Shown: piece after piece, positions 8,191 through 38,429 of the stretch
Position numbering within the stretch: position 1 is the stretch's first letter
How the letters are laid out: each line of letters begins with the position of its first letter
NCBI RefSeq assembly: GCF_030169785.1
Contig: NZ_CP125854.1
Location: forward strand, 620,001-684,000
Direction: 5' to 3'
DNA: 64,000 nucleotides
Source of the DNA: Bdellovibrio sp. 22V
GTDB lineage: Bacteria; Bdellovibrionota; Bdellovibrionia; Bdellovibrionales; Bdellovibrionaceae
Program-made: the position numbers and the translations under genes
The notes under the pieces: generated by a model
Databases searched by the model: none
Seen by the model: only the letters and a program-made list of their open reading frames with translations
Told to the model about the DNA's origin: nothing

Positions 8191-8192
8191 TC

Positions 8193-9712: not shown

Positions 9713-9736
9713 GGATAGGACTAGGAGAAAAATCTC

Positions 9737-10684: not shown

Positions 10685-10699
10685 GTCTAGAGATTAGAC
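10685..10699. promoter_or_regulatory. inverted repeat GTCTA-N5-TAGAC upstream of the lipid operon
   Basis: Two perfect five-base arms are spaced by five bases, 27 bp upstream of a possible -35 box at 10726. The site could bind a regulator such as the neighbouring AraC-type protein. Evidence is weak. Confidence 0.2.
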
Positions 10700-10725
10700 A
10701 ACGGTGCCAAAGTGACATTTTCCGC

Positions 10726-10753
10726 TTGATCTAGAGTCTCAATTCTATTTAAT
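10726..10753 (+). promoter_or_regulatory. candidate sigma-70 promoter of the lipid operon
   Basis: TTGATC (10726-10731) and TTTAAT (10748-10753) with a 16-bp spacer match the -35 and -10 consensus at four and five of six positions. They lie about 70 bp before the ATG at 10821. Confidence 0.35.
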
Positions 10754-10820
10754 TCCCTCGTGGGAACTTGTGGAACTGGGTACGTTACTTGCTACCTCAG
10801 TTTCTCGGAGACAAAATATT

Positions 10821-15648: not shown

Positions 15649-16715
15649 TGAAACGCCTTTTTTTCTTGGCTCTACTTGTGTTCTCCTCTTTGGCCAAGGC
15701 GGATCTGGTTTTGGCGCCAAGGTATGAATACATTCAAGGCCAAGAAGAAGAGTTGGCGAATCGTTTTATTCTTAAAGGCAAATTAAACGCGACGGCCGGA
15801 CCCTTTGGAATTTACGCTGAAGGTTTCGGTGAATACGAAATGAACGAAGACCAGGCTTTTATCCGCCGCTCTCCCTCGCGCGGTTATCTGCAAGAAGCCT
15901 ACATGGAGTTCAAGCTAGAATCTTTTTTTGTGCGTGTCGGGCGCCAGGCTTTGCGGTGGAGCGAAAGCTGGACCTTGCCGTCTTTGGATATTTGGACGGG
16001 ACGAAGATGGAATCGTTTATTCTTCGATCCGTTTGAAGACCAGCTGACTCATTCCACTGGAGCTTCTTTCACCTATGCCACGGAAGTATTTTCTTTAGAG
16101 TTAGTCGGCATCGGCGAACTTGCAGAGAATGATTTTCCTCAGCCCATTCCTGAAGTCGAGAATGAAGAAAACACCAGTTTCGGCGGACGTGCAAAATGGA
16201 ATGTCGGTGGGTTTGCGTTTTCTTTTTTATCGGCGCAGGTCTTGAAAAAGTACTATTATGGCGGGACTGCGAACTACGCTTTTGATCATGCTGTCCCCAA
16301 AGTTGAAGTCGGATATAGCAATGACACCGGCAACGAAATTCCCGGTATCAAGAAAGAGCGTCTGTTTGGTTTGATCGGGGTGGATCTTTTTTTAGGAAAC
16401 TGGGTGATCCTCCCGCAGCTGAGTTATTTTGAAACTGGCGACATCACGGGGAATGAAACCCAGACTTCGTTTTATCTGACGGCGCAGTGGAACCCAGACC
16501 GCCATGATCTGCATTTCCAGCTTTATCAAAATCCTAAAGCGGAGGATTCCTTCCTCAGTGTGACCTACGGATACAATCTTACGGACTATTTTACAGCCGC
16601 GATTTTCGCGCAAAACTATGAAGGTAATGACGGCCTTTATAAAATATATGAAGATATCACGGGGGGCTTCGTCGCGGGGCTTCGTTTGCAACTGACAGGA
16701 AATCTTCCCTTTTAA
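15648..16715 (+). CDS. outer-membrane beta-barrel protein paired with the LolA-like protein
   Basis: A 355-residue protein starting at GTG inside the TAGTG overlap with the previous stop. It has a signal peptide (1-18, ending AKA) and many amphipathic strands such as FFVRVGRQALRWSESW, and it ends at a C-terminal phenylalanine (GNLPF). The RVGRQ-x-x-RWGES-like segment recalls DUF1302-type barrels that partner with LolA-like proteins and exporters. It would be the outer-membrane acceptor or pore for the product of the operon. Function is inferred from family and position. Confidence 0.82.
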   Translation: MKRLFFLALLVFSSLAKADLVLAPRYEYIQGQEEELANRFILKGKLNATAGPFGIYAEGFGEYEMNEDQAFIRRSPSRGYLQEAYMEFKLESFFVRVGRQALRWSESWTLPSLDIWTGRRWNRLFFDPFEDQLTHSTGASFTYATEVFSLELVGIGELAENDFPQPIPEVENEENTSFGGRAKWNVGGFAFSFLSAQVLKKYYYGGTANYAFDHAVPKVEVGYSNDTGNEIPGIKKERLFGLIGVDLFLGNWVILPQLSYFETGDITGNETQTSFYLTAQWNPDRHDLHFQLYQNPKAEDSFLSVTYGYNLTDYFTAAIFAQNYEGNDGLYKIYEDITGGFVAGLRLQLTGNLPF

Positions 16716-16724: not shown

Positions 16725-17822
16725 GTGGCGAAAGAATATTTCTCTGATCTGAACTACACTTTGTCCAATGAAGATACACGCATCGAATTTGAATTGCTTG
16801 CGGATGACGTAGAGCGCGTGTTCAGTATTGCAGGTTCGGGCGCCCGTTGTTTGCCTTTGCTGGCGAAAAATCCCAAACATCTCGACGTCATTGATATGTC
16901 TGTGTCGCAACTGTATCTGTGCGAGTTGCGCTTACAGGCGATGAAAACGTTGTCGTATGAAGAGTATCTGTTTTTTATGGGGTATCGCGGTGGTTTGCAA
17001 GTAGGAACGGATTCGGGGGACGACCGAGAAGTTCTTTTCCATCGTTTGATTTTATCCAAAGAAGCGAAAGCGTATTGGGTCGAGCGCGTGCAGGGCTGGA
17101 AACCGCATGGTTTTATTTTATTAGGGAAGTGGGAATCGCATTTTCAAAAGCTCGGCTATGTTTTCCGGGACATCTTGCAGTGTGATTTCAGTAAAATCTT
17201 TTCCGCACAGTCTTTGGACGAACAGATCGAATTGTATGAACAATACTGGCCGAAGATTCGCTGGAACAGTTTTATCAAAATTGCCGCCAGCGAGTACGTC
17301 TTTAACAAGTACCTTTATAAAGGTCACTTCAGCGGACGTTCCGAAGCGAAAACAGAAGAGCGCGGACCTTCGCAATTTATCATGGAAGAGTTCGATCGTA
17401 TTTTTAGAACGCAGCTGGTGCGCAAAAACTATTTCATGCAGATTCTTTTCTTAGGCCGCATCGCCTATGAAGAAGGTTTGCCTTTGGAAGCGCACCAACA
17501 CATTGTCGATGCCGTGAAAAAATCAAAAACCGAAATTCATTACTTGCATGGCAACTTGTTAGAACATTTACCTCGCCACGCTTACAACTTTATTTCTTTG
17601 TCCGACACGATTTCCTATTTGGATGCGAACGACGCCAATCAGATCTTGCAAAAGCTTTCGCCGGAAACAAAAGCGGGCAGCAAAATGGTGATTCGTTCCT
17701 TCATGCGCGCACCGACGGCCATCGATACAACGGGCTGGAAAGCTTTGGTCGACAAAGACAAATGGGCCCACCAAAAAGACGGCACCGGCGTTTACCAGTT
17801 CCACATCTTTGTGAAGAACTAG
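16725..17822 (+). CDS. DUF3419 protein, BtaA-like S-adenosylmethionine:diacylglycerol aminocarboxypropyltransferase
   Basis: A 365-residue protein of the BtaA/DUF3419 family. BtaA transfers the 3-amino-3-carboxypropyl group of S-adenosylmethionine to diacylglycerol, the first step of betaine-lipid synthesis. The start region (SDLNYTLSNEDTRIEFELL) and the nucleotide-binding segment FSIAGSGARCLPLLA followed by VIDMSVSQLYL are characteristic. The start is GTG with AAGGAG upstream, nine bases after the barrel gene. No BtaB-type N-methyltransferase gene is visible nearby, so the product may be an unmethylated homoserine lipid or something else. It ends the operon. Confidence 0.85.
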   Translation: MAKEYFSDLNYTLSNEDTRIEFELLADDVERVFSIAGSGARCLPLLAKNPKHLDVIDMSVSQLYLCELRLQAMKTLSYEEYLFFMGYRGGLQVGTDSGDDREVLFHRLILSKEAKAYWVERVQGWKPHGFILLGKWESHFQKLGYVFRDILQCDFSKIFSAQSLDEQIELYEQYWPKIRWNSFIKIAASEYVFNKYLYKGHFSGRSEAKTEERGPSQFIMEEFDRIFRTQLVRKNYFMQILFLGRIAYEEGLPLEAHQHIVDAVKKSKTEIHYLHGNLLEHLPRHAYNFISLSDTISYLDANDANQILQKLSPETKAGSKMVIRSFMRAPTAIDTTGWKALVDKDKWAHQKDGTGVYQFHIFVKN

Positions 17823-18140: not shown

Positions 18141-18704
18141 ATGAAATTGTGGGAATTGAGGAAATTCAACATTTTAGCTTTGTTGTTTATGGTGGCAGGA
18201 TGCTCCGACGCGAATCCTACCGTCAGTATTCTTCGTTCCATTGAAGGCTTTGACTTTAATCCCACAAATGTCGTGACTGCGAGCATGAACAATGTGCCCT
18301 TGCAGGCAACGTGTTCTTCGTTCGTGGGCGCTGTTGAAATGAGTTTCGACGGCGGCACAACATGGGTGACTCCGACGTCGTATGACCCTGCCGTGGCTTC
18401 CCAATGTGCGAATGGCAGTTTTCAAATTTCTCTTTCAGACAGCAAGGCCCCTTGGAGTTCGATGACGTTTACGAACGGCCAGATGGTGACCGTGAAGTTC
18501 CGCGCACAACCTCGTATCGGCAACTGGATTTATCGTAATGTCACAATCAAATACTCTCCTTCTACAACGATTTCACAAGAGATCTTAGCAGGGGCGAAGA
18601 CACAAACCGGCACCAACATGGTTTTGAAGGGCCGCGTTCGTGCGCAAGAGCAGCATGTCGCTTCCGGCGGTGGCTTTGTGATTAAGGGAAGGATTGCGCA
18701 ATGA
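18141..18704 (+). CDS. lipoprotein encoded with the S74 fibre
   Basis: A 187-residue protein with a type II signal peptide: residues 1-20, lipobox MVAG and then the lipidated cysteine at 21. The mature part is beta-rich with two further cysteines and a segment SFDGGTTWVTP like immunoglobulin-type sugar-binding or fibre-associated domains. It ends in a Gly-rich tail. The ribosome site is weak (AAAG). Its stop overlaps the fibre gene start (ATGA at 18701), so the two are translated together. A role in anchoring or exporting the fibre is inferred. The family is unknown to me. Confidence 0.82.
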   Translation: MKLWELRKFNILALLFMVAGCSDANPTVSILRSIEGFDFNPTNVVTASMNNVPLQATCSSFVGAVEMSFDGGTTWVTPTSYDPAVASQCANGSFQISLSDSKAPWSSMTFTNGQMVTVKFRAQPRIGNWIYRNVTIKYSPSTTISQEILAGAKTQTGTNMVLKGRVRAQEQHVASGGGFVIKGRIAQ

Positions 18705-21691
18705 AGTTCTTCCTGATGGTCTTACTTTTTTTAATCAGCATTTCTGCCATGGCGGTATCGCCCGGGTCTCTGTTTACTTATGAAGGTATTTTGACGGATG
18801 CGACGGGTACACCGATCACGACCACGCAAACAGTCACCTTTCAAGTGATCTATCCTCCCTCTTGTGTGGTGTATGAAGAGACGCAGAATATTGCGCCGGG
18901 AACACAAGGTGAATTCAGTGCCACGATTGGTGCGGGTTCACGCACAGACTCGACGGGAAATACGGCGGATCGTATCTTTGCGGCCAGTGGAAGTGTGAAC
19001 TGTCAGGGCGGCACGACAGCGGCCGTCTCTGGATTTACTTCCCGTTCATTGCACATTCGCGTGGGTGCTACGGATCTTGCTCCCGATGTCACGATCAATA
19101 ACATTCCTTTTGCGATCAATGCGCAAAGACTCGCGGATAAGACTTCAAGTGATTTCGTGCAAAACACGGGATCGGTGACTCAGGCGTTAATGAATTCTAT
19201 CGCGGGAATTTTTGCGACAGCTCCTGCCGACAATCAAGTGTTGATGGGCAATAGCGGAACCTATGTTCCCGGAAATATCACCGCGGGTTCGGGCATTAAT
19301 ATCACTTCAGGAGCAGGTAATATCACGATCTCCGCGACGGGAAGTGGCGGCAGCGTCACCAATGTAACGTCAACAGCGCCGTTGAGTGTTGCGACCGGAA
19401 CAACGACTCCGCATATTACTCTTGCGAAGGCGACGTCGACAACAGACGGATACTTGGCGGCAACAGACTTTGCTGTTTTTTCGGATAAACTTTCTTCGTC
19501 GCTGGCACCGGGAAATATCTTCGTAGGAAACGGCAGCAGTGTGGCGAATTCTGTTCCGGTGTCTGGTGATGCGACGTTGGCTCCGAGTGGAGCGTTGACG
19601 CTTTCTGCGATCGGAACGGCAGGCACTTATTATAAAGTCACGACCGATACGAAAGGCCGCGTGACTGCGGGAAGTACAAGTTTGGTTGCTGGAGATATTC
19701 CTTCTCTTGATTTTGCGACGAAGATCACTGGCCTGCCAACGACGTTAAGTGGTTACGGAATCACAGACGGTGTGAAAAATCTGGGATCAACTCTGGGGAT
19801 CAAGTCGGATGTGGATTCAGCGAAAGGCGCGGCGGGAACTGCGGGTCGTCTTTTCATTGCGACCGACACTCTGAAAATTTATCGAGATAACGGCTCTGCC
19901 TGGGATACATTGGGCGGTGGCGGAGGCGGAACGGGCACTGTCACAAACATCGCAACAGGTACGGGCTTAGTCGGCGGACCTATTACGAGCACAGGCACAA
20001 TTTCATTGGCGAACACCTCAGTGACAGCGGGTACATACGGTTCCGCAACGCAAGTTCCTACCTTTACCGTTGATTCACAAGGCCGTTTGACAGCGGCATC
20101 CACGGTAACCATTGGCGGAGTCACTCCCGGAGGAACAGCCGGTGGAGATTTGTCAGGAGTCTATCCGAATCCAAGTGTCGTGAAAATTCAAGGACGGCCT
20201 GTCAGTGCAACGCCCCCTTCAGGTGGACATGTTTTGAAATATAACGGAACAGATTGGACACCTTCATTTGTGAATGTCGGTTCGGAGACCACAGGTGTTT
20301 TGAATGTCGCTAACGGTGGTACGGGAACGGGAACTTTCGTTGCAAACCGTTTGGTTGCTTCCGACGGAACAGGCTCGACGTTGACGACCTTTACTTGCGG
20401 CATTGGCAATATGATCACCTTCGACGGTGCGGGTATGATGGGTTGTACACCTTACGATACGGCAGGTCTTGTTCTGAACGGGGGTAATAGTCCCGCATCG
20501 CCACTGACTATTGGAACCAACAACGCGCAAGCTGTTCATGTTGAAGTGAACGGAACTAACAAAATGTCGATTCTTCCGAACGGAAACGTCGGTATTGGCA
20601 TCACCTCTCCATCGGCTCGCCTGGAAGTGGCCACTGACGGAGCGACAAGTTCGATCGTCAATCGAAGTTATATGTCGGATGTAAATGCCGCAGGACTTTT
20701 CTTCGGATACAAAGCTCGTGGAACCGCGGGCTCGCCGCAACATCCCTTGGCCAATGACCGTTTGGCGGTATTTGGCGGCGCCAACGGAGTGAGCACGAAC
20801 ACCTATGCGGGTGTGAGTATTTTAGCGTCAGAAAATCACACGGCTTCAGCGCAGGGAATGAAGATGGATTTCAATGTCGTTGCAAATGGAACCGTCGGAC
20901 AGACGACGGCGATGACTTTGGATTCCTCCGGTAAGGTGGGTATTGGAACGACGTCTCCGCTTTTCCGTTTATCCGTCGAAGATCCTGTTGCAATTGCTCC
21001 CGTGCAGGTAGCCTCTGCAAACGCGTCCGCTTCCGGTTTGAGAATCCTCAATACCGTGGGCGGTAATATGACGGCGTGGACGCTGGCTCAGTCGAGCAAT
21101 ACTACGAGCACTTCATGGGGTTCGTCGAATGCCTTCACGATCACGAATCAAAACAGTTTGCCGGATGCTCAGCCTAAACTGACAATCGAGTCAGACGGTA
21201 ACGTCGGTATCGGCGTGAGTGATCCAACGTCTCGCTTGCACGTCAACGGAAGCGGCTATTTTACGGGGTCGGTGACACAATCTTCTGACCGAAGATTCAA
21301 GGATCATATTCAAACCTTGCCGTTGGCATTGCAGAAAGTTTTGCAAATGCGTGGTGTTTCGTACACTTGGCGCCATGACGAGTATCCAGAAAGACAGTTC
21401 CAGCAAGGATCTGACATTGGTTTAATCGCGCAAGAAGTAGAAGAAGTATATCCTGAAGCGGTCACGACGGATGCAAAAGGTTATAAAGGAATCGCCTACA
21501 ATAAATTGATTGCTCCGCTGATTGAGTCGACGAAATCACTCTATGGTATGTGCCATTCGCTTGAGCGTAAGATCGCTTCCGTGGAAGCGGACAACGCTGC
21601 AAAAGAAGCTCGCATCCTGCGTCTCGAAAAAGAGAATGAAGAGCTGAAAAAAGATCTCGAATTGATTAAAAAGAAACTCGGTCTTCAATAA
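18701..21691 (+). CDS. surface fibre with C-terminal S74 intramolecular chaperone (mosaic adhesive trimer-like)
   Basis: A 996-residue secreted protein with a signal peptide (1-18, ending AMA). An N-terminal beta domain (about 20-150) is followed by long Gly/Ser/Thr-rich beta stretches with TAGTYGSATQVPTFTVDSQG-type phage tail-fibre repeats and three copies of xGxVGIGxxxPxxRLxV. The end is an S74 chaperone from residue 861 (SSDRRFKDHI, with the autocleavage Ser-Asp at 862-863) and a heptad coiled coil (about 945-990). S74 domains fold and trimerise tail fibres, then cut themselves off. In Bdellovibrio, proteins of this design (the MAT family) lie at the invasive pole and recognise prey. That role here is inferred. 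Confidence 0.9.
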   Translation: MKFFLMVLLFLISISAMAVSPGSLFTYEGILTDATGTPITTTQTVTFQVIYPPSCVVYEETQNIAPGTQGEFSATIGAGSRTDSTGNTADRIFAASGSVNCQGGTTAAVSGFTSRSLHIRVGATDLAPDVTINNIPFAINAQRLADKTSSDFVQNTGSVTQALMNSIAGIFATAPADNQVLMGNSGTYVPGNITAGSGINITSGAGNITISATGSGGSVTNVTSTAPLSVATGTTTPHITLAKATSTTDGYLAATDFAVFSDKLSSSLAPGNIFVGNGSSVANSVPVSGDATLAPSGALTLSAIGTAGTYYKVTTDTKGRVTAGSTSLVAGDIPSLDFATKITGLPTTLSGYGITDGVKNLGSTLGIKSDVDSAKGAAGTAGRLFIATDTLKIYRDNGSAWDTLGGGGGGTGTVTNIATGTGLVGGPITSTGTISLANTSVTAGTYGSATQVPTFTVDSQGRLTAASTVTIGGVTPGGTAGGDLSGVYPNPSVVKIQGRPVSATPPSGGHVLKYNGTDWTPSFVNVGSETTGVLNVANGGTGTGTFVANRLVASDGTGSTLTTFTCGIGNMITFDGAGMMGCTPYDTAGLVLNGGNSPASPLTIGTNNAQAVHVEVNGTNKMSILPNGNVGIGITSPSARLEVATDGATSSIVNRSYMSDVNAAGLFFGYKARGTAGSPQHPLANDRLAVFGGANGVSTNTYAGVSILASENHTASAQGMKMDFNVVANGTVGQTTAMTLDSSGKVGIGTTSPLFRLSVEDPVAIAPVQVASANASASGLRILNTVGGNMTAWTLAQSSNTTSTSWGSSNAFTITNQNSLPDAQPKLTIESDGNVGIGVSDPTSRLHVNGSGYFTGSVTQSSDRRFKDHIQTLPLALQKVLQMRGVSYTWRHDEYPERQFQQGSDIGLIAQEVEEVYPEAVTTDAKGYKGIAYNKLIAPLIESTKSLYGMCHSLERKIASVEADNAAKEARILRLEKENEELKKDLELIKKKLGLQ

Positions 21692-21798
21692 TCCCATTTT
21701 TAAACATCTCATTGTCACACGTTTCTTAACCATAACTTTATGGGTTCTTACATATTTGTTAAACTTTTAGATGGAACGTTGGGAATCATGAGGTACGT

Positions 21799-22995
21799 AT
21801 GTTAAAAACACTCTTCGCTATCGCCATTGCATTTTCGTTTGCGTCGGCATCCGATGCCAAATCGTCGAATACAAAAAGTTCGAGCAGCGTGAACCGCTAC
21901 CAAAGAGGGCTTCTTAAGAAAATCTCTTGTCATTTTTCCGGTACACGCACTTCCACTGGAGACAGCATCGGTTCCGTGGATTTCGTAGATCCTGAAAAAA
22001 CCGTCTGTGATCCCCTCTCGAACACCTCAAGCCCGTCGCCTGAAAACGGTCTTTTAGGAAAATTAATTCTTAAAACTCCGGAAATGGGCAACAAAGTTTC
22101 TAGCGTGATGGACTACTATAATAAGGGACAAAAAATCGACAAAGACTTGTTCTTTGCCGACGTGAATGTTCCTACACGCTCTTTCACTCAAGGGTTCTCT
22201 ACTTTATCGGGTGAGGTGTTGGTTGGTGCCGATGGGAATAAATTGATCGAGAATTTCGCGATTGAGTACACATCGACATTGAAGCTCTCTGAGAATGATA
22301 AGGAAGGGGAGTACGAGATTGCGGTCCTTTCCGACGACGGGGCTCGTATGTTTATCAAAGAAGGTGATAAGTGGAATGAGCTCATTAACAATGACGGGAA
22401 TCATCCGACACGCATGGGCTGTCCTTATCGCACAATCACAATGACAAAAAACTCTGAAGTTCCTGTGAAACTTCTTTATTACCAAGGACCGCGCTATCAT
22501 ATCGCGAACGTCTTGATATGGAAGCATCATAAAAAAGCACACACTTGGAAAGAGCCTTCACGTCATTCGCTGTGCGGGATTGCAAGCAATCAATACTTCT
22601 ATGATTCAAAGAACGGAAAGAAAAAACCGGCAATTCATTTCCTTGAAGCGACAGGGTGGCGAACCATCGCCGCTGCTAACTTCAAAATGCCAGAACAAAA
22701 GCCAAACCCTTGTTCACAAGAACCTTTGGTGATTAATGACTTCCGCGTTGTTTCAGCTCAAGCGCCAAACGCCACGGTAGCATGGACAACGAATTTACCG
22801 TCTTCAACTCAGCTGCGCATTCTCAACGTCTACACAGGCGAAGAAATGCTCACAGAGGTTGACGCGAACCTCGTAAACGAACACACCGTCGAACTCAGCG
22901 GCCTCGTCCACGGCATCTACTACCAAGTCCAAGCCATCTCCAAAGACGCCGAAGGCCGAGAAACTCGCAGCGCCCTCATAAACGTATTGCCATAA
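21799..22995 (+). CDS. secreted PA14/fibronectin-like domain protein
   Basis: A 398-residue protein with a signal peptide (about 1-20, ending SDA). Residues 115-235 resemble a PA14 domain, with FAIEYTSTLKL and YEIAVLSDDGARMFI (DDG at 179-181), a fold that binds carbohydrate. The last 90 residues resemble a fibronectin type III module (VAWTTNLPSSTQLRI, HTVELSGLVHGIYYQVQAI). It contains several cysteines that could form disulfides in the periplasm or outside. The pair of domains suggests a surface adhesin or glycan-binding protein. It has its own promoter region of about 107 bp after the fibre gene and a terminator at 23025. Confidence 0.78.
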   Translation: MLKTLFAIAIAFSFASASDAKSSNTKSSSSVNRYQRGLLKKISCHFSGTRTSTGDSIGSVDFVDPEKTVCDPLSNTSSPSPENGLLGKLILKTPEMGNKVSSVMDYYNKGQKIDKDLFFADVNVPTRSFTQGFSTLSGEVLVGADGNKLIENFAIEYTSTLKLSENDKEGEYEIAVLSDDGARMFIKEGDKWNELINNDGNHPTRMGCPYRTITMTKNSEVPVKLLYYQGPRYHIANVLIWKHHKKAHTWKEPSRHSLCGIASNQYFYDSKNGKKKPAIHFLEATGWRTIAAANFKMPEQKPNPCSQEPLVINDFRVVSAQAPNATVAWTTNLPSSTQLRILNVYTGEEMLTEVDANLVNEHTVELSGLVHGIYYQVQAISKDAEGRETRSALINVLP

Positions 22996-23172: not shown

Positions 23173-23288
23173 AGTTTGGTAGCTGGTCCGAAGTGAGGCC
23201 TCTGCCAAGCGTGACGCGTTCGCCCGCAGGGCGATGGCAGCAGAGCTCAAGGACGAGCGTGCCTCACGAAGCGACGAGCTACCAAACT
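23173..23288. repeat. 116-nt imperfect palindrome between convergent genes
   Basis: The outer arms AGTTTGGTAGCT (23173-23184) and AGCTACCAAACT (23277-23288) are perfect complements; GTGAGGC and GCCTCAC continue the pairing inside. The centre is a CGCCC-GCA-GGGCG hairpin (23221-23233). The right end overlaps the stop codon of the minus-strand PEP-synthase-like gene. Its layout resembles the 5190-5313 element, but the sequence differs. Confidence 0.7.
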
Positions 23289-25974
23289 AACCCTCATCAA
23301 GAATCTTAATAGTCCCCGCCTTAGCATCAATCCGAACCTTCATGCCGGATTTAATCCGCTTCGTAAGCCCCGGAATACTAACAATAGCAGGAATTCCCAT
23401 CTCTCGAGCGACAATCGCAGAGTGAGACAGCAGACTTCCGCGCTCAACAAGAAGGCCCGAGATAGACGGATATAAAGGCACCCAGCCTGGATCTGTGCGG
23501 GCGGTCACTAAGATCTCACCGTTGAGTTCCAAGTTGTCTGACGGGTTTAGGATCACTTTTACGGTGCCTTCTAAAACGCCGGGACAGCACGGCAGACCTT
23601 TGAGGTGCCAGTCACCGGTTTCCGTCTGAATCTGAGACAGATCTTCTTCTTTGATAAACTGATTGTTCCAATAGACCGCACCGCGAGTCAGCACACGCGG
23701 ATCGGTGTCCTCAGTGAAGCGCTCGTAATCTTTTTTGCGAAGATTGATAAAGCCTTTCAAGTCCATCGACGGCAAAGTGCCGTTGTAGATTCCAAAGATT
23801 TCTTCAATCGTAAGCCAGAAAATATCGCGAGGATGTTCGATCGCTCCCAATGAAGCTAAATCTTCACCTACGGTTTGGAAGATCGTGCGGGCAATCCCGT
23901 AAATACGTGTGCGGGCAAAGCGCGTGTTCTCTCGATTCTTAACGGCTTTACGAGCGTGCTTAAGAACCCAGAAATAAAATTTCTTCTTAAAGCCCGTTAA
24001 GTGCGCTGCCACTTTTTCTTCGGCCTGGGCACGCAGGGACTTTTCGTGAGAATCGTCATGAATTTCCGTCTGTCCCGATTTCAAGTAATTCTTCAGACAG
24101 ACAAAGAGATAACTTGGATCGGTGAGAAGATCGATTTCTTCAAGTTTCATTTCGCTCATACAGCGGAATCCGAAGCGATCTAAATAATCCAGCACGGACT
24201 TGTAGAACTCTTGATAAGGAGATTGGTTGAGCGCCTCAAGACCCTCTTTCGGATCAGTGGTTTCAAGCAACTGACGAAGACCTTCATTCTGTGCGGCTTT
24301 ATTCGCTAAACGCAGCAGGGCCTTTGTCGGCTCCGCACTTTCTAGTCCGCCCTCACCAGCGAGTAAATCATTTTGAATCGTCGAATCAAGTTCCTTCAGC
24401 CACGTTGTTGTGAGCTTGCGCAAAAGACCAAAGTGCACCATGCAGAGGAAGTCATTAATGATGGGAGCTTTCCACCGGCCCAACATGTTTCTTTCCAGTT
24501 CCATATAGACGCGAATGAGCTGGTCTCCGCGCATGCGTTTCAGTGGCATCGCACGGTACTTGTCATAGTCGCGATGGAAGGTCTGCAAGAAATCATCAAC
24601 CACGCTTTGAATTGTGAAATGATACTTAATGAAATTAAAGCCCGTGATCATTTTGCGGATACGGCCCGAGAACGTATCCCATGAAGGATGCGGTTTAATG
24701 CGGTTGGCGATCTCGTCACTTAAGGCTTCCGAAACGCCCATCATGGTTTCCATGAATTCGCGATTTTGTTTGAAGCCGGGAAGTACGCCGACAAGTTTGT
24801 ACCAGTTGAAAAGATTGTAGTACACGCGACCGTTCAACGAGCCCAGCATGTAACCCAAATATGAATCCATGTCTTTGATGATTTCATTCGGAACGCCCAA
24901 GACCTCACAAAACTGCACATAGACGGCTTTGTAATTGCGAAGGGCGAAACTAAAACTCAGAGGCGAAGTCAGACCGCCGTAAGACTCAATAATATTCGAG
25001 TTGTCCCAAAGATTGGGGTAACCGATCAAGTCCTGATCCAAGCTTGTGACCGGGCGGGTCTGCAGAATATAAAAACGGCCGTTTTCGACGGCCCACTCAA
25101 TATCTTGCGGGCGATGATACTGCTCTTGAATCTGCGCACCCAGTTTGTAGAGCTTTGTGATCTCGTCTTGATTCAAAGAGGGTCCGTTGATCAGCGGCAC
25201 CGGGACGGGAAGAGTTTCACAATGCCCTGATGAAGACTTTTTCATCATTTCTTTTTTCTCGACCAGCTCTTCACGCAAAAGTTTACCCGTCTTGGCGTCG
25301 ACCCAAAACGAATCTGCATCGAGTGCTCCTGAAACCAAGCCTTCACCGACTCCGTAAACTGAAGACACGACAAAGGCATCCACTTTCTTCGCGACAGGAT
25401 CGCAGGTAAAAAGAACTCCTGATTTTTCTGGATCAATCATTCGTTGCAATACAACGGAGACAGAAATTTTCTTAAGATCTATTTTGTTTTCAATACGGTA
25501 AGCAAGCCCGCGCTCGGAAAATGCGGAGGCCCAGCAAAGACGTATGAACTTTAAGATGTCTTCTTTGCCCGAAACATAAAGGAAACTTGAGAGCTGCCCT
25601 GCAAACGAATGCGCCAGACTGTCTTCATCCGCGGCAGAGGAACGCACAGAAAATACTTTGTCATGACCGAGAGTTTTTAAAGCCTCGTCCAAAGACTTTG
25701 CCACATTCGCCGGCAGAGCGGTCTTTTCAAACAGACTTAAAACTTCTTTTTCCGCCTGAGCGCCGGTGATCTGCGAGCTTTGCAATCTCTCTAGAATATT
25801 TTCCAGATTGATTTTTACTCCGGGCGTATCCAAGAATTCTTGAAAATATCGTTTGCCAAAGACCACCCACTCAGGGACGGGCAGGCCGGCTTGCGACATT
25901 AAATAAAGATTGAAGCCTTTGCCTCCGGCTTCATTCTTCGCGAAAAAAAGAGTCGATTTGGGTGTGACAAGCAT
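23287..25974 (-). CDS. PEP-synthase-like phosphotransferase
   Basis: An 895-residue protein with the three parts of PEP synthase-like enzymes. The N-terminal ATP-grasp domain (1 to about 320) opens with NEAGGKGFNLYLM and includes VRSSAADEDSLAHSFAGQ and DIEWAVENGRFYILQTRPV. A long central region (about 330-790) does not look like the PEP/pyruvate barrel of true PEP synthase. The C-terminal mobile domain has the phospho-accepting His in GSLLSHSAIVAREMGIPAIV (His851). The same plan occurs in rifampicin phosphotransferase and in enzymes that phosphorylate other small molecules. Last gene of a five-gene operon, two bases after the UbiA gene. Its substrate is probably an operon intermediate (inference). 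Confidence 0.82.
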   Translation of the reverse strand: MLVTPKSTLFFAKNEAGGKGFNLYLMSQAGLPVPEWVVFGKRYFQEFLDTPGVKINLENILERLQSSQITGAQAEKEVLSLFEKTALPANVAKSLDEALKTLGHDKVFSVRSSAADEDSLAHSFAGQLSSFLYVSGKEDILKFIRLCWASAFSERGLAYRIENKIDLKKISVSVVLQRMIDPEKSGVLFTCDPVAKKVDAFVVSSVYGVGEGLVSGALDADSFWVDAKTGKLLREELVEKKEMMKKSSSGHCETLPVPVPLINGPSLNQDEITKLYKLGAQIQEQYHRPQDIEWAVENGRFYILQTRPVTSLDQDLIGYPNLWDNSNIIESYGGLTSPLSFSFALRNYKAVYVQFCEVLGVPNEIIKDMDSYLGYMLGSLNGRVYYNLFNWYKLVGVLPGFKQNREFMETMMGVSEALSDEIANRIKPHPSWDTFSGRIRKMITGFNFIKYHFTIQSVVDDFLQTFHRDYDKYRAMPLKRMRGDQLIRVYMELERNMLGRWKAPIINDFLCMVHFGLLRKLTTTWLKELDSTIQNDLLAGEGGLESAEPTKALLRLANKAAQNEGLRQLLETTDPKEGLEALNQSPYQEFYKSVLDYLDRFGFRCMSEMKLEEIDLLTDPSYLFVCLKNYLKSGQTEIHDDSHEKSLRAQAEEKVAAHLTGFKKKFYFWVLKHARKAVKNRENTRFARTRIYGIARTIFQTVGEDLASLGAIEHPRDIFWLTIEEIFGIYNGTLPSMDLKGFINLRKKDYERFTEDTDPRVLTRGAVYWNNQFIKEEDLSQIQTETGDWHLKGLPCCPGVLEGTVKVILNPSDNLELNGEILVTARTDPGWVPLYPSISGLLVERGSLLSHSAIVAREMGIPAIVSIPGLTKRIKSGMKVRIDAKAGTIKILDEG

Positions 25975-25976
25975 GT

Positions 25977-26840
25977 TTAGGTCCCCAGTACGTAAATAAG
26001 AAGGATGTAGTGAAGAAGGAGATAAACTCCCGAGATGTTTCTAAAGAAACGCGCTGATTGTTCTGTTCGCTTAAGAAGATAAAAATGGCTGGCAATAATA
26101 TAAAGAACCAACGCTGCAACAAGTACAACGTGCGGTTTGAAGTAACAGACAAGTCCGACACCTAAAATAGCTTGGCTGAGGGAAAGATACAAAGCGCCGT
26201 TGCAGCCGAAAATGTTTGAATAACTCGGGACATGCGGCCGTTCTTCCGGAGGCGCATAAGTTTTGCGGGCAAACTCGAAAAGGTTGAAGAAAGCCCAGTT
26301 CATCAAAAAGAACAAGACGTGTTGCAAAGAGAGGTTTGCGACGGATTCTCCGGTCATAGCAATGGCGGCACTCAATCCTAAAAGGCAGCTGACAAAAGTG
26401 TGAGTCACAGCATACGTCGTTAGATGAGGACGAAGGAGATCGCCGATAAAAAACTCTTCATACATCAAAAGGCTGTATGCGATCGCTACCGCGTGAACGA
26501 AGAAGGCGTTCAAGCCCAAAATTGAAATCGCCACAAGTTCAAAAATGATAAGCAGAAGCAAAGCTTTCTTAACCTGAGGAACAGTAAGAACTCCGCGAGC
26601 CAAAGGGCGGGTTGGATTCACTTTAAGATCGACCTCATAATCTTTGATCTCATCGAAAAGACGCATGCGCAAGAAGAAGGAGAGCAGAACACCGAACGCG
26701 ATTGCAAAACGAGTCCAACTCCAAGAATAACCTTGAGTTGTGGTCAGAAAATACCCGTTGGCCCATGTGAATAATAAAATCATGGGCACGTAAGAAGCGG
26801 GACTAAATCTTTCGCGAATCAGAGTCCACCATTTAACCAA
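25977..26840 (-). CDS. UbiA-family prenyltransferase
   Basis: A 287-residue integral membrane protein with about eight to nine helices. The first Asp-rich motif of UbiA enzymes is FDEIKDYEVD (62-71), followed by NPTRPLARG. The second canonical Asp motif is replaced by EFARKTYAPPEERP then SYSNIFG, a variant found in a subgroup of UbiA-like proteins. UbiA enzymes join a polyprenyl diphosphate to an aromatic or other acceptor at the membrane. The gene overlaps the hydrolase-ligase fusion gene by 8 bp and precedes the PEP-synthase-like gene by 2 bp. No quinone genes are nearby, so ubiquinone or menaquinone synthesis is unlikely. Confidence 0.87.
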   Translation of the reverse strand: MVKWWTLIRERFSPASYVPMILLFTWANGYFLTTTQGYSWSWTRFAIAFGVLLSFFLRMRLFDEIKDYEVDLKVNPTRPLARGVLTVPQVKKALLLLIIFELVAISILGLNAFFVHAVAIAYSLLMYEEFFIGDLLRPHLTTYAVTHTFVSCLLGLSAAIAMTGESVANLSLQHVLFFLMNWAFFNLFEFARKTYAPPEERPHVPSYSNIFGCNGALYLSLSQAILGVGLVCYFKPHVVLVAALVLYIIASHFYLLKRTEQSARFFRNISGVYLLLHYILLIYVLGT

Positions 26841-29244
26841 TCACAACTCCTGGTTCTTTAAGCTGCTCGCGCAAGACTTTGTACTCTACTTTTGAGTGAT
26901 GGCGCGGATCCATCGGGATCTTGCTGACGAATTTGATTTCATCCACAGGGATTTTGTTCTTGTCGAAGACGCGGCGGATCTCGTCTTTAGCTTTGACGAA
27001 GTCAAAAGAAGCCACGTTGATGTCGGCCTTAAGTTCAACGACGGCGTAAGTAGCCTGACCTAAACTCTTGTCGTCCATACCCAAGAAAGCGCAGCGGTAT
27101 GTGAAGTCCATACGTTTTAAAAGAACCTCAGCGCGAACAGGGAAGTAGTACTTGCCAGCGCGTTCGATGGCATTATTCACGCGCCCTACGATCCAAAGAT
27201 TTTTATCGGCGTCGATGTACGCTAAATCGCCGGTTCTGTGCCAAACACGGCTTTTTTCGTCGAGAATTTTTGTCGTTTTAAAGGCGTCCGGATTATTGTA
27301 GTAATCGCGGCAAACGTGGTCGCCCGTGCAGATAAATTCGCCGACTTCACCACGCGGAACTTCAATTTGACTCCACGTTGTTTCAGCCAAATCAATCGGT
27401 CCGTCTTTGATGCGAATAAATTTGAAATCAATGTCGTCACTGATATGGCCGACGTTCACACCTTCTTCAATAATTTCAGGGTCGGTGATCTTGCTTTCTT
27501 TAAGCATGTCACGGCCTTCGATATGCGCCATGGGCTCTGCTTCCGTCGAGCCGTACAGGATCCAGAGATCCGTTTGCGGAGCGATGTCATAGAAGGCTTT
27601 CACATCGTCTTTTGAAATCGGCGCTCCACCTGTCACCACACGGCGAAGTCCTGACAACGTAATGCCTTTTTCTTTACAGAAACGCGCCAGTCCCACAAGC
27701 ATACTCGGGGATAAGGTCGTGCAGTTGATATTCTCGTTGATAATCTGGCACGCCAAAATCGCTGGATCGCGTTCGCTCGGTTGTGCTAAATCAAGGGCAG
27801 GTAAAATCGTCGTCACGCCTGAAGCCAGATTGTTCAAGCTGAAAATCGGGAAGGCCGGCATGTCCTTGTCTTTTTCGGTGTAAGGAATCACGTGTGAAAG
27901 AGCATGGTGTTGTGCCGACAAAAAACGATGTGTGCGGTTCGCACCTTTTGGTTTGCCTGTCGATCCCGTCGTGAAGGTGATGAGCGCTGTGAATTCGCTT
28001 TCAACCGGTTCAATTGGAGAAGCCTCTTTTTTCAGAAGCTCTTCAAATTTATGCGTGAATTTATCACCAGGTCCGTAAAGCACACGGATCGGCATTGATT
28101 TGAACTCAGGAACTTGATCGACCAGGTCGAATGCCATTTTAAAACTGATCATCGCTTTCGGACCGACGCATTCTGCGGAAGCTCCCAAGTGATGGCTGCG
28201 CGCCCAGGAGTCCAAGAAGACCGCGATCGCGCCGATTCTTTGCACGGCAAACATCGCCGTATACATATCAAGACTCATCGGCAAAAAGATAATGACCCGG
28301 TCGCCTTTTTTAATGCCGATGTCCAAAAGACCGCGGGCAAAAGAATTAATTCTTAAAGCGAATTGGCTGTAGGTGATTTGATCGTGAGGAATCGGCTTCT
28401 TGGGATCGCCATCCCATTGAGCCATTCCTTGTCGATTGGCCCAGCGGAGCGCCACACGATCCGGAAATTCACGCAGATGTTTTTCCATATAAGTAATGAC
28501 GTTGTTACGTTCATCCGAACCAGGATAGTAGCCGATTTTATTCGAAGAAGAAGATGAAGACACGGGCGCTCCTTCCAATGCTTTAAGAATTTCGCCAGGA
28601 TGAGACCACAAAAGACCGTGACCGGCTTTTTCCAGATGGATCACTTTGCGTGAAGGATATTGTTCAATAATTTTATTCTGAAGAGGGAAGTTGCTCAGTG
28701 GATCTTCCTTTCCGAAGATCGCAGTGACCGGAACGCCGCAAATATCCCGGGTTGTCCAAGGCGTGTTTTGCATGTGGATTTTGTTGAACGCGGTTCTTTT
28801 CCAAAGTTTCCAGTCCTGCATGCGCTCTTGCACTTTAGCGAAGTAAGGCTGGCTCTCTGAATTTTGCGGATGAAACAGCTCCTTAAGAAAACCTTCCTTG
28901 CTTTTTTTGTGACTGGACTGAATCAAAGAGTCGCCCAGTACAGGGATTTTTAGAAGAGTTTGCGCCAAGCCTGAAAGAGGTCGTTCCGCTTGCAAGTAAG
29001 GCGTAATAAGCACGACGTGTTCGACGTAGTCGTGCAATTCCGGAAGTTTTTTTAGAATGCGGTAAGAGCCCCAAGAGTGACCCATCAGAATCTTTTTGTC
29101 TTTACTCTTGGTTAGCAAAGAAATCCACTCATCCGTATTCGCATCGACGGCAACAAGCTGATAGCCGGCGGGCAGAGATTTGCTTAAAGAAGACCAATCG
29201 TCAGGATGTCCAGGGTTGCCATGCAAGGCAATGATGGTTTTCAT
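26833..29244 (-). CDS. fusion of alpha/beta-hydrolase and OleC-like AMP-dependent ligase
   Basis: An 803-residue two-enzyme protein. Residues 1-225 form an alpha/beta-hydrolase with nucleophile elbow GHSWG (Ser57), acid near Asp181 and His209. A run of six serines (229-234) links it to an adenylating enzyme (about 236-803) with TTGSTGKPKG (425-434), YGSTE (564-568) and the late HRTGDLAYID motif. The ligase half has IRIKDGPI and GHISDDIDFKF segments like OleC, the beta-lactone synthetase of olefin biosynthesis; OleB-OleC fusions are known. However, OleB uses an Asp nucleophile and this hydrolase uses Ser, so it is not a plain OleBC. It overlaps both neighbours by 4 to 8 bp. Confidence 0.85.
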   Translation of the reverse strand: MKTIIALHGNPGHPDDWSSLSKSLPAGYQLVAVDANTDEWISLLTKSKDKKILMGHSWGSYRILKKLPELHDYVEHVVLITPYLQAERPLSGLAQTLLKIPVLGDSLIQSSHKKSKEGFLKELFHPQNSESQPYFAKVQERMQDWKLWKRTAFNKIHMQNTPWTTRDICGVPVTAIFGKEDPLSNFPLQNKIIEQYPSRKVIHLEKAGHGLLWSHPGEILKALEGAPVSSSSSSNKIGYYPGSDERNNVITYMEKHLREFPDRVALRWANRQGMAQWDGDPKKPIPHDQITYSQFALRINSFARGLLDIGIKKGDRVIIFLPMSLDMYTAMFAVQRIGAIAVFLDSWARSHHLGASAECVGPKAMISFKMAFDLVDQVPEFKSMPIRVLYGPGDKFTHKFEELLKKEASPIEPVESEFTALITFTTGSTGKPKGANRTHRFLSAQHHALSHVIPYTEKDKDMPAFPIFSLNNLASGVTTILPALDLAQPSERDPAILACQIINENINCTTLSPSMLVGLARFCKEKGITLSGLRRVVTGGAPISKDDVKAFYDIAPQTDLWILYGSTEAEPMAHIEGRDMLKESKITDPEIIEEGVNVGHISDDIDFKFIRIKDGPIDLAETTWSQIEVPRGEVGEFICTGDHVCRDYYNNPDAFKTTKILDEKSRVWHRTGDLAYIDADKNLWIVGRVNNAIERAGKYYFPVRAEVLLKRMDFTYRCAFLGMDDKSLGQATYAVVELKADINVASFDFVKAKDEIRRVFDKNKIPVDEIKFVSKIPMDPRHHSKVEYKVLREQLKEPGVVIG

Positions 29245-29981
29245 ATCCGTGTTCCTTTGCTGCGTAACTTGTAAAAATCTCTGAGCTGAGGGTTCGTGCG
29301 ATAAACTGTTTGCGGTGTTCTCGTGTTTTCCACTCCGCGCACTGTTTTCTCCGCAGCGATCTGCCGCAGAACTTCTGCGGTCGCGTTGGCTTCCAAGGAC
29401 GCTCCCGTTGCTAAAGACTCCAAATAATTGGATTTATCGGAGTGAACTTCCACGACCTTTAGCAGGGCCCCGTCATCCAATTTGGAAGTCATTTCATGAA
29501 TGGAAAATCCAAACGAAGTGTCAAAAAGATGAGCCCAAAAGTCACACATTAGACCCCGCTGGTCCGGAAGAAGACCATGGTGGATGTTGATGCATCCCAT
29601 TTTGGGAATAGCGAGAAGTTTCTTTTTAAAGAAAGACCGTGTTCTCGCATTCACGATCAAATCCGGTTGCAAAGAATGGAGGATATTTAATGATTCTTCC
29701 GAGTTGATGTCTTTCAAGACCCAGACTTTTTTTCCGGCGGCAGAGAAAGCCTTCTTTTTTCTTTCTAAGGAATTGTCGAAAAAATTTTTCAGAAGTTGCC
29801 AGCCCATGAGAGGAGCTGCACCGGAAAGTAAAAGAAGCAGAGCTTTGACGATAATATCCCAGCTCCTGTTGTCGATGACGACAAGAGCGGTGATGTGCGG
29901 GTCTTGCGCTAAGGGCAAAACCAAGCCGTCATAGTTTTGAGGAACAAAGGTCACCGCAGAGGTGACCAATAAAGTTCTCAT
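29241..29981 (-). CDS. formyltransferase-fold protein
   Basis: A 246-residue protein of the methionyl-tRNA/GAR formyltransferase fold. The catalytic segment NIHHGLLPDQRG (132-143) gives Asn132 and His134, and LDDG (168-171) supplies the usual aspartate, so all three catalytic residues seem present. Similar stand-alone proteins use 10-formyltetrahydrofolate to formylate amino sugars or other amines. The C-terminal tRNA-binding domain of Fmt is absent, so initiator tRNA is not the substrate. It has four-base overlaps with both neighbours, so it is embedded in the operon and likely modifies an amine on the operon's product (inference). Confidence 0.82.
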   Translation of the reverse strand: MRTLLVTSAVTFVPQNYDGLVLPLAQDPHITALVVIDNRSWDIIVKALLLLLSGAAPLMGWQLLKNFFDNSLERKKKAFSAAGKKVWVLKDINSEESLNILHSLQPDLIVNARTRSFFKKKLLAIPKMGCINIHHGLLPDQRGLMCDFWAHLFDTSFGFSIHEMTSKLDDGALLKVVEVHSDKSNYLESLATGASLEANATAEVLRQIAAEKTVRGVENTRTPQTVYRTNPQLRDFYKLRSKGTRI

Positions 29982-31759
29982 AAATAGAGCTCGTCAATTT
30001 TATCCTTGTAACGTTGATCCAGTACTTTTCTTTTTACTTTCAATGACGGAGTCAGTTCGCCGCCTTCAACCGTGAACTCAATTGGCAGCACCAAATATTT
30101 TTTGATGCTTTCAAAGCTTGCAAGCTGGGCATTGGCATCAGACACGGCCTTACGGGCCAGTTCCTGAACGAACGGGCTTGAAACCAAGGTTTCCCATTTT
30201 TCAAAAGGCACGCCTTTTTCTTTCGCGAGTTTTTCAACAGACGGACGATCCAGGGTCAGCAAAGCCACGATGTATTTCTTTTGATCCCCGTGCACGTGGA
30301 CGTGCGCGACGTAAGGTGAAAGTTTCAAAAGACCTTCGACTCTTTGCGGAGCCACGTATTTTCCGCCCGCTGTTTTGATCAAATCTTTCTTACGGTCAGT
30401 GATGCGCAGGTCGCCGCCGGGAAGTATTTCGCCGATGTCTCCTGTGTGAAACCAGCCATCCGTGAAAGCGGCAGCGGTCGCCTCGGGATTTTTATAGTAC
30501 TCTTTCATGACCTTGTCGCTTTTAACAAGGATCTCGCCATCTTCAGCGATTTTCAGTTTCACTTCGCCGATAGGGCGGCCGACACTGCCGAAGCGATAGT
30601 TGAAAGGCGTATTGACCGTGATCGCGGCCGTTGTTTCCGTCAGGCCGTAGCCTTCAAGAATCAGAATACCTGCAGAGTGGAAAAACATAGCGATCTCGCG
30701 GGAGATAGGGGCGCCGCCACTGATGGCAAAACGCAGACGGCCGCCAAAAGCATCCGTGATTTTGCTAAGTACCAGCTTTCTTGCTAATTCGTATTTTACA
30801 AGCAAATCCAGCGGCAGAATTTGTCCACTCATTTTGTATTCGCCGACCTTTTTTCCGACCTCTAAGGCCCACGTGAACAGTTTCATTTTCAAAGGCTGCG
30901 TTTGGACTTGCGCCCAAATAGCTCCATATATTTTCTCAAAAATACGCGGCACTGAAACCATAATGGTCGGGCGGATGTCGATCAGATTGTTGCGGATTTT
31001 TTCCAGGCTCTCTGCATACGCCATGGTAAAGCCGATAAAGAGGTGTCCCCAATGTTCAATGCGCCCCAAGATGTGCGCGTAGGGAAGAAACGTTAAAGAA
31101 GTGTCTTTGGGTGAAGCTCCGCAAAAAGGGAAAGCTTCAGAGACTTCACTGAAAGCTTGAAGATGTGTTAGAACAACGCCTTTCGGTTTTCCCGTCGTTC
31201 CGGAAGTATAAAGAATCGTCGCGGTGTCCTCAGGCGTGATTGTCGCACAAAGCTCCGAATACTTATTCGGGTGAGATTGCAAATAAGTTTTACCGATCTC
31301 ACGCAGTCGGTTCCATGTGATCGCGTCTGGATTCGGGCACGTGTCTTCAAAGACAATTACTTTTTCCACTTTCGGTGTTTTATCTTTTATCGAATCGAAC
31401 GTTTTCAAAGGACCGCGTGTTTCGCAAACCAAAATGCGGGATTCACTGTTGTTTAGAATATACTCAACGTCTTCCGGAGTGTTGTTTTGGTAGATAGGAA
31501 CGGTGATAGCTTTAATGCCAAAAATCGCCAAATCCATGACGGACCATTCATAGCGAGTGTTGGCCATAATTGCCACGCGATCGCCGGGCTTAATACCCAA
31601 GGAAAGCAGGGCGGAGCCCACTGTTTCAACGTCTTGATAATAATCAGACCAGTTTTTTGAAATCCAAGTTCCGTTGGTTTTGAATTTGACGGCAACATCG
31701 TGAGGGTCGCGCGAACGCATGTTCAGAATACAATCAGCCAAGGTGGTGGGCTTCGTCAT
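29978..31759 (-). CDS. long-chain acyl-CoA synthetase (AMP-forming)
   Basis: A 593-residue FadD15-like enzyme that activates long-chain fatty acids as acyl-AMP and then acyl-CoA. Motifs are YTSGTTGKPKG (184-194), GYGLTETTAAI, and the C-terminal TDRKKDLIKTAGGKYVAPQ signature. GAGGAG lies before the ATG at 31759. It is the first gene of the five-gene operon and overlaps the formyltransferase-fold gene by ATGA. A second AMP-forming ligase two genes away suggests that two different acyl chains or carboxylates are activated. The Ser/Thr kinase gene ends 44 bp upstream. Confidence 0.93.
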   Translation of the reverse strand: MTKPTTLADCILNMRSRDPHDVAVKFKTNGTWISKNWSDYYQDVETVGSALLSLGIKPGDRVAIMANTRYEWSVMDLAIFGIKAITVPIYQNNTPEDVEYILNNSESRILVCETRGPLKTFDSIKDKTPKVEKVIVFEDTCPNPDAITWNRLREIGKTYLQSHPNKYSELCATITPEDTATILYTSGTTGKPKGVVLTHLQAFSEVSEAFPFCGASPKDTSLTFLPYAHILGRIEHWGHLFIGFTMAYAESLEKIRNNLIDIRPTIMVSVPRIFEKIYGAIWAQVQTQPLKMKLFTWALEVGKKVGEYKMSGQILPLDLLVKYELARKLVLSKITDAFGGRLRFAISGGAPISREIAMFFHSAGILILEGYGLTETTAAITVNTPFNYRFGSVGRPIGEVKLKIAEDGEILVKSDKVMKEYYKNPEATAAAFTDGWFHTGDIGEILPGGDLRITDRKKDLIKTAGGKYVAPQRVEGLLKLSPYVAHVHVHGDQKKYIVALLTLDRPSVEKLAKEKGVPFEKWETLVSSPFVQELARKAVSDANAQLASFESIKKYLVLPIEFTVEGGELTPSLKVKRKVLDQRYKDKIDELYL

Positions 31760-35055: not shown

Positions 35056-36234
35056 ATGTCTAGAGGATCTGTTTTCCTCGCAGGCCTTACCACTTTGTTC
35101 GTGGCGCAGGCGGCATTCGCAGAAAGCATTAGCACAACCATTCACCATCATTATCAATCACCTCGTGCTTTGGGGATGGGGGACGCCTTCGTTGCGGTTG
35201 CAAACGATTACACAGCTTTGTTTTACAACCCGGCAGGGTTGGCTCGTCGCGATGACGGGCAGATTAATCTTTCTCTGAGTGCTGCGGGAACACCGGGTGC
35301 AATGGACTTCTATAAAGAGTACCAAGACATCGAGCAATCCAATCAATCGGAAACGGACAAACAAACAGCCTATCTGCAGTTGATCGAAAAACATTATGGC
35401 GATGTGTATTCGATGCGCTTGTCTCCTCTTGAAGGTGTATGGGTTCGTCCTAATTGGGGTCTTGCTTTCATTCCAATGGATGTCTCTGTTGAGATGGCGA
35501 TGCACCAACAGGTTGGACCAACGATCAACGCGACTGTTTATGCCGACACGACTTTGGCTTTAGGTTACGGAGATGACTTTCATGGTTTCAGTCATGGTCG
35601 CTTCTCTTGGGGTGTGACGGGCAAGTTCGTCAATCGCGGCTTCTTCAGTAAACCTATCAGCGCGACGGATTTGGCGGCGAGTGACGAGATCGTGAAAAAG
35701 GAAGATTTGCTGGAAGGTTATACCGTAGATGCCGATGTAGGCCTTTTGTGGACTCCGGAACTTCCTGATTCGGGCTTCTGGTCTGTGTTGCGTTTAGCGC
35801 ATCCAACATTTGGTATGGTCGTGCGTAACGTTGCCGAAACCGGTTTCGGTCAAACGATGCAATTAGTGAACAAAGAAAAACAAAACGGCACGCCGGAAAA
35901 GTTGTATCGTGTTGTCGACATCGGAACACGCTGGGAATATCCAACGGCGTGGATTTTTGGTGGTCGTGGCGTTTTGGATTTCCGCGATATCGGTCATCCT
36001 GACTTCAACTGGAGAAAAGGCACGCACCTTGGTTTTGAGTTCGACTGGACCGTGTCCACTTGGTGGAAGGGTCACTATCGCGTGGGTTTAAGCCAAGGAT
36101 TCTGGACAGCGGGGCTTTCCGCGGAGCTTGGTATTTTCAACTTGGATCTAGTCAGTTATGCCGATGACGTCGGGACGAAAAACACGCCAGTAGAATCTCG
36201 CGTCTACGGCACTCGCTTAAACTTAGACTTCTAA
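35056..36234 (+). CDS. FadL/PorV-like outer-membrane barrel, paralogue 1
   Basis: A 392-residue protein with a signal peptide (about 1-23). The N-terminal motif RALGMGDAFVAVANDYTALFYNPAGLARR is shared with two neighbours (conserved GMG, ND, AL-x-x-NPAGL) and is typical of FadL/PorV-like barrels, whose N-terminus plugs the lumen. The C-terminus has VSYADDVGTKNTPVESRVYG then LNLDF, also shared. GGAGG lies nine bases before the ATG. Such proteins move hydrophobic compounds or act as secretion partners; the substrate is unknown. A 22-bp inverted repeat follows the stop. Confidence 0.82.
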   Translation: MSRGSVFLAGLTTLFVAQAAFAESISTTIHHHYQSPRALGMGDAFVAVANDYTALFYNPAGLARRDDGQINLSLSAAGTPGAMDFYKEYQDIEQSNQSETDKQTAYLQLIEKHYGDVYSMRLSPLEGVWVRPNWGLAFIPMDVSVEMAMHQQVGPTINATVYADTTLALGYGDDFHGFSHGRFSWGVTGKFVNRGFFSKPISATDLAASDEIVKKEDLLEGYTVDADVGLLWTPELPDSGFWSVLRLAHPTFGMVVRNVAETGFGQTMQLVNKEKQNGTPEKLYRVVDIGTRWEYPTAWIFGGRGVLDFRDIGHPDFNWRKGTHLGFEFDWTVSTWWKGHYRVGLSQGFWTAGLSAELGIFNLDLVSYADDVGTKNTPVESRVYGTRLNLDF

Positions 36235-38292: not shown

Positions 38293-38429
38293 ATAAAGGA
38301 GTATCGGCTCTGCCGCAAAGAGCTTAATCCTCGACTTTCGACCTTATTTTCCTCCGTTGTCTCAATGTGAGGCTCCAAGTTGCCGATATGTCCATTGATA
38401 TATCTGATTTTTTGTTAGCCGAGGTATCT

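Follow-up and report, generated by a model that had tools for sequence, protein, structure and literature searches.

Five adjacent genes on the minus strand of Bdellovibrio sp. 22V, at 23287–31759 of the 64,000-nucleotide stretch analysed here (the window), raise the question of which pathway would combine acyl activation, N-formylation, transfer at the membrane and a PEP-synthase-like step. A first-pass annotation had read them as one operon and one pathway, and the ORF coordinates bear out the arrangement. In the order of transcription, the genes encode a FadD-type acyl-CoA ligase (fadD, 29978–31759), a formyltransferase (29241–29981; Pfam Formyl_trans_N), an alpha/beta hydrolase fused to an OleC-like AMP ligase (26833–29244; Pfam Abhydrolase_6, 5–220, and AMP-binding, 254–649), a UbiA-superfamily membrane transferase (25977–26840; Pfam UbiA) and a PEPS-like enzyme resembling PigC, RedH and Rph (23287–25974; Pfam PPDK_N and PEP-utilizers), our candidate for a joining enzyme. 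The formyltransferase gene overlaps both fadD and the ligase gene by 4 bp, the ligase gene overlaps ubiA, which starts with TTG, by 8 bp, and 2 bp separate ubiA from the PEPS-like gene. Pfam and NCBIfam confirmed the families of all five genes; the protein initially called a plain ligase is indeed an AMP ligase, but its N-terminal alpha/beta hydrolase domain had been missed.

When the same gene order was sought in other genomes, it proved to be conserved, and the genes occur together well outside this strain. Together with the invariant active sites described below, this conservation argues that the operon is not a chance arrangement. The operon observation is right, and it is understated. Its weak point is fadD, which is present in 24 of 24 genus genomes, including those without the other four genes, and is therefore a genus-core, co-transcribed neighbour rather than a cassette-specific gene. 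In relatives, the order of fmt, hydrolase-ligase, ubiA and PEPS is kept, and fadD keeps STK and coaE as neighbours in genomes where the cassette is missing or sits elsewhere. The idea of a single pathway thus holds for these four genes, a conserved unit, but not for fadD. The five genes as the unit are rejected, given that the other four move without fadD, and the true cassette is formed by the formyltransferase, the hydrolase-OleC-like ligase fusion, the UbiA protein and the PEPS-like enzyme. In two genomes, a different cassette occupies the same site after STK-fadD (4266–12768 of locus L053 in G020; 6997–13013 of L054 in G012), comprising another ligase, a GNAT, a divergent UbiA (about 30%) and a PEPS (about 42%); G020 adds a P450 and an MFS transporter.

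The operon also fails as the full unit, as the system reaches to about position 7468. The resulting block of 22.5 kb (about 7468–29977) holds the cassette and a set of plus-strand genes. In seven genus genomes, the distance between fadD and the gene pair on the far side of the block (6203–7467 in the window) is just about 19 bp to 2.5 kb, a near-empty junction replacing the entire 22.5 kb; six of these genomes are without the system, and the seventh (G011) carries it elsewhere. The plus-strand genes begin with an ABC transporter ATPase (7510–8190; Walker and signature motifs), whose homologues recur beside the system, a LolC/LolE-type ABC permease (8193–9401; NCBIfam lolCE, E 1e-25) and an AraC-type regulator named from its sequence (9737–10597), which is also found in the G020 block (L159). 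They continue with a YegS/DAGK-type lipid kinase (10821–11819; NCBIfam TIGR00147), a reductase-like SDR (11819–12841; NCBIfam PRK07201 and Thioester-redct) and a PigE/AAR-like thioester reductase (12810–14939; NCBIfam PigE 2e-53, AAR 2e-16); in locus L072, the kinase homologue matches Pfam DAGK_cat and the SDR homologue matches NAD_binding_4 and Epimerase. A LolA-like secreted carrier, named from its sequence character (14950–15648), has homologues, grouped in one cluster, close to the system at 20 loci, and a probable outer-membrane beta-barrel (15648–16715) is suggested by a signal-peptide-like start and a conserved neighbour cluster (c17); neither protein matches an NCBIfam family. The last gene encodes a DUF3419 (BtaA-like) enzyme (16725–17822; Pfam DUF3419, E 1e-59). 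The DUF3419 enzyme, reductase, SDR, lipid kinase and exporter had all escaped the first reading. Its suggestion of a lipid product gains from the neighbours of lipid-exporter type, although exporter genes are missing from some loci.

Between the block halves, at 18141–22995, three genes for surface proteins were left out of the system: one is lipoprotein-like, one encodes a long fibre-like protein and one a protein with a PA14 domain. They also occur near the block in several relatives. Elsewhere in the window, three proteins of one PorV/TraF_2-like cluster are encoded close together (35056–36234, 38367–39515 and 40559–41701).

Across the genus, the genes for UbiA, PEPS, reductase and DUF3419 are found together in the same 16 of 24 genomes and are absent together from the same 8. 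The chance per match pattern would be 1 in 735,471 if the genomes were independent, but they are related and the block can go in one step. What carries weight is therefore a set of three genomes (G001, G008 and G018), in which the block halves lie on different contigs and both are still present, together with the wider comparison between phyla.

For this comparison, we scanned one genome per species with a PEPS alignment, which yielded at least 561 relatives, kept 80 loci, and clustered, profiled and mapped the neighbouring genes. Loci with ligase, UbiA and PEPS were found in Bdellovibrionota, Planctomycetota, Pseudomonadota, Verrucomicrobiota, Cyanobacteriota, Omnitrophota, Kiritimatiellota, Lentisphaerota, Thermodesulfobacteriota, Bacillota, Bacteroidota, Fibrobacterota and Methylomirabilota, and homologous clusters, organized as two exchangeable modules, are present in at least 12 phyla. 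Since many loci are metagenome-assembled, single cases could be binning errors; the carriers include named strains such as Brevibacillus laterosporus, Methylomonas sp. and Oscillatoria sp. Plasmids gave a single distant PEPS match, and viral contigs contained no relatives of the ligase fusion. Three actinobacterial loci (L137, L145 and L146, from Streptomyces and Gandjariella) encode PEPS and UbiA without DUF3419 in the flank, L146 also having a PigE/AAR-like gene; being only partly like the other loci, they possibly represent a related secondary-metabolite pathway.

Module A consists of either the formyltransferase or a GNAT, together with the ligase and UbiA. Module B combines DUF3419 with either the reductase, SDR and lipid kinase or an HMG-CoA-reductase-like enzyme and a membrane kinase (K14). 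Within each module the alternatives are mutually exclusive: no locus has both formyltransferase and GNAT (34 and 52 loci with one), and none has both HMGR/K14 and AAR/DAGK (22 and 35 with one). All four combinations exist among the 39 complete loci, namely 16 FMT/AAR, 11 GNAT/HMGR, 8 GNAT/AAR and 4 FMT/HMGR. Methylomonas sp. SURF-1 and Brevibacillus laterosporus belong to the GNAT/HMGR type. We then counted label changes on gene trees of these loci, using fast tree searches and labels called within limited flanks. On the UbiA and ligase trees the FMT/GNAT label changes a single time each, on the PEPS tree three times and on the DUF3419 tree seven times; for the HMGR/AAR label the corresponding counts are four, four, three and one. 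Shuffled labels gave 12 to 13 changes on average, and larger locus sets gave the same picture. These counts indicate joint inheritance of acyltransferase, ligase and UbiA as module A, and of DUF3419 and the reductase/kinase set as module B. PEPS, with just 3 to 4 partner changes on both sides of its trees, exchanges partners with either module, as one would expect if two branches of a pathway converge on PEPS. The case for the system and its modular build is strong at the level of sequence comparison, where it draws on the modules themselves, their joint occurrence and active sites that are intact.

Among the module A enzymes, the formyltransferase has the Asn/His/Asp catalytic triad of Fmt/ArnA-type enzymes in 36 of 36 sequences. 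The hydrolase-ligase fusion scores 369 bits against NCBIfam PRK09274, and its hydrolase domain carries a Ser nucleophile (GHSWG), with a Ser/Asp/His triad in all 31 sequences. For UbiA, the predicted model (pLDDT 94.7) has the expected prenyltransferase fold, with Foldseek matches to 6m31 and 4od4 at a TM of about 0.65–0.70, and the first Asp-rich motif is intact (D63, D67 and D71 in 92 of 92). By sequence, the second Asp-rich motif is replaced by ExxRK, with E189 in 91 and R192 and K193 in all 92 homologues. As this replacement is found throughout these homologues, the enzyme may use a donor other than a standard allylic diphosphate; it may carry out the prenyl transfer initially assigned to UbiA, though its second motif is non-canonical.

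In module B, the C-terminal half of the reductase resembles the PigE thioester-reductase domain (E 2e-53), and its fold matches that of AAR (6jzu/6jzy, TMt 0.81–0.83); the N-terminal half gave no clear fold in the structure comparison. The catalytic residues AAR Cys294 and PigE Cys296 have been named and evidence for thioester reduction by PigE has been given (PMC8341465). Cys641 of the reductase aligns with both and is invariant in 30 of 30 sequences, such that the catalytic Cys and the Rossmann fold of acyl-ACP reductase/PigE reductases are in place. BtaA of the betaine-lipid pathway matches the Pfam family DUF3419 (PMC6642084). The DUF3419 protein of the block is divergent from canonical BtaA, scoring 203 bits vs about 380 for the best relatives in the order, and the recurrent neighbourhood clusters include no N-methyltransferase (BtaB) partner. 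In the variant clusters, 21 of 21 HMGR-like sequences have all four catalytic residues. Among the 19 host genomes of these clusters, many of them incomplete MAGs, 18 have no match to HMG-CoA synthase and 17 no mevalonate kinase above cut-off, making it unlikely that the enzyme supplies mevalonate for isoprenoids there. The window's own genome encodes an HMG-CoA reductase at a site distant from the block (G000:C1:3221555-3222646, L150) and has no match to PF08540, the C-terminal family of HMG-CoA synthase. An assignment of K14 as phytol kinase/phytyl-phosphate kinase (VTE5-VTE6) was rejected; CTP_transf_1 (E 0.009) and DUF92 (E 0.01) matched one member each, and in view of this weak Pfam match we call K14 kinase-like from its motifs.

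The best explanation for these data, to which we give about an even chance, is that an exported outer-membrane lipid is made in two branches, with the PEPS-like enzyme joining the halves. From the enzyme families, we infer the individual reactions, their order and the product as follows. In module A, the OleC-like ligase would activate an acid, the UbiA-type membrane enzyme would transfer a lipid chain, and an amine would be N-formylated or, in other genomes, acylated by the GNAT. In module B, the PigE/AAR-like enzyme and the SDR would reduce an acyl thioester to an aldehyde or alcohol, whereas elsewhere the HMG-CoA-reductase-like enzyme alone could take the thioester to the alcohol. Phosphorylation of the reduced product by the lipid kinase or its membrane counterpart may follow, and the DUF3419 enzyme, by analogy to BtaA, may add an aminocarboxypropyl group from SAM. 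The PEPS-like enzyme could use ATP to activate one partner via its phospho-His and condense it with the other, in the way PigC links the halves of prodigiosin. Finally, the LolC-type ABC transporter, the LolA-like carrier and the beta-barrel would move the product to the outer membrane.

Some of the other readings differ in the role they give to the PEPS-like enzyme. According to Pfam, its 895 residues contain only PPDK_N and PEP-utilizers, the ATP-binding and phospho-His domains of the PEPS-type phosphotransferase/ligase superfamily (Rph, PigC, RedH), and the catalytic His851 is present in 107 of 107 homologues. Ordinary central metabolism, with a PEP synthase placed beside fatty-acid activation genes, would fit the NCBIfam name phosphoenolpyruvate synthase (NF004881, 1345 bits). 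We find this barely credible, however, because the PEP/pyruvate-binding domain is absent, the gene is missing from 8 of 24 genus genomes and its order with the same partners is conserved in many phyla. PEP synthesis, and with it the PEP-synthase-type chemistry proposed at first, is rejected on domain content; the NF004881 name, applied to a PEPS subfamily that lacks the PEP/pyruvate domain, is likely a widespread misannotation. Comparison with NCBIfam profiles ranks RedH (388 bits) above PigC (374), Rph (351) and PEP synthase (295; 294.7 for the TIGR01418 equivalog, under its cut-off of 739.75). The first three scores fall short of the respective cut-offs of 1350, 1300 and 999, those for RedH and PigC by far, and we therefore do not claim orthology to PigC or RedH. 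Another reading retains the lipid pathway and makes the enzyme a plain, Rph-like phosphotransferase that acts on a lipid intermediate without joining anything. Its invariant phospho-His, its domain set and its closest solved structures, the rifampin phosphotransferases 5hv1–5hv3 and 5fbs, all agree with such a role; yet Rph scores lower than RedH and PigC, a lipid kinase (DAGK or K14) is already part of the system, and the swapping of partners with both modules suits a joining enzyme better, which leaves the plain phosphotransferase as a serious but rather unlikely possibility.

The product itself could be a diffusible secondary metabolite, such as a prodiginine-like pigment or antibiotic, instead of a membrane lipid. 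This would account for the PigC- and PigE-like enzymes and for the P450 and MFS genes of some variant cassettes, but we saw no pyrrole-forming, PKS or NRPS genes in the block, which instead holds a LolC-type permease and a lipid kinase, and the system is present in most of the genus and in many phyla; we thus consider it improbable. Even less probable, in our view, are two unrelated lipid pathways lying side by side, one of a betaine type with DUF3419 and one making a formylated lipid. The modules are inherited separately and can sit on different contigs, as in G001, G008 and G018, yet both occur in one set of 16 of the 24 genus genomes, unlinked cases included, their linkage is repeated in distant phyla, and PEPS is common to all four module combinations.

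Returning to the two-branch pathway, its broadest form is a class of outer-membrane lipids that spans phyla and has so far escaped recognition. Here, two exchangeable halves, one N-formylated or N-acylated, the other reduced, phosphorylated and aminocarboxypropylated, would be ligated by a PEPS/PigC-type enzyme, and HMG-CoA-reductase-like enzymes would be recruited outside the mevalonate pathway. We advance this tentatively, putting its chance at somewhat below even. If this holds, predatory bacteria and at least 12 phyla, including Planctomycetota, Verrucomicrobiota, Pseudomonadota, Bacillota and Cyanobacteriota, make a class of lipids that has gone unnoticed, and the annotation of its key enzyme as PEP synthase is part of the reason. 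Where a genome has an HMG-CoA-reductase homologue but no HMG-CoA synthase or mevalonate kinase, that enzyme would then act on a new substrate. The four module combinations, as natural swaps of half-molecules, would predict which structural part differs between species. In the literature searched, outside which lie most subscription journals and all preprints, no paper matched the gene set and possible products, in line with the initial impression that no known pathway accounts for these genes.

Several characterized systems share parts of the block. An OleC-like ligase with a fused hydrolase and a weak OleD-like SDR score recall the OleABCD olefin/beta-lactone pathway. The nucleophile of OleB is Asp, however, whereas the hydrolase has Ser in 31 of 31 sequences, and the OleC score is 220 bits against a cut-off of 900; membership in OleABCD/OleBC was rejected. 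By both profile and fold, the closest solved structure to UbiA is the archaeal digeranylgeranylglyceryl phosphate (DGGGP) synthase 6m31, from which it differs in having about 15% identity and ExxRK in place of the second Asp motif. Rph shares the architecture of ATP-binding, central and phospho-His parts with the PEPS-like enzyme and is its best match among solved structures, but the PEPS-like gene sits in a biosynthetic cluster. A DUF3419 enzyme is common to the block and to betaine lipid (DGTS) synthesis by BtaA/BtaB (PMC6642084); the subfamily found here is divergent and has no recurrent N-methyltransferase neighbour, and the amine is more likely formylated or acylated. With respect to prodigiosin and undecylprodigiosin, the block differs in that no pyrrole-forming genes are seen, the PigC/RedH cut-offs are not reached, and UbiA, DUF3419, a lipid kinase, a formyltransferase or GNAT and Lol-type export are found instead. 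What the two would share is a single pathway of two branches that meet, containing both a PEPS-family ligase (PigC/RedH) and a PigE-type thioester reductase (PMC8341465).
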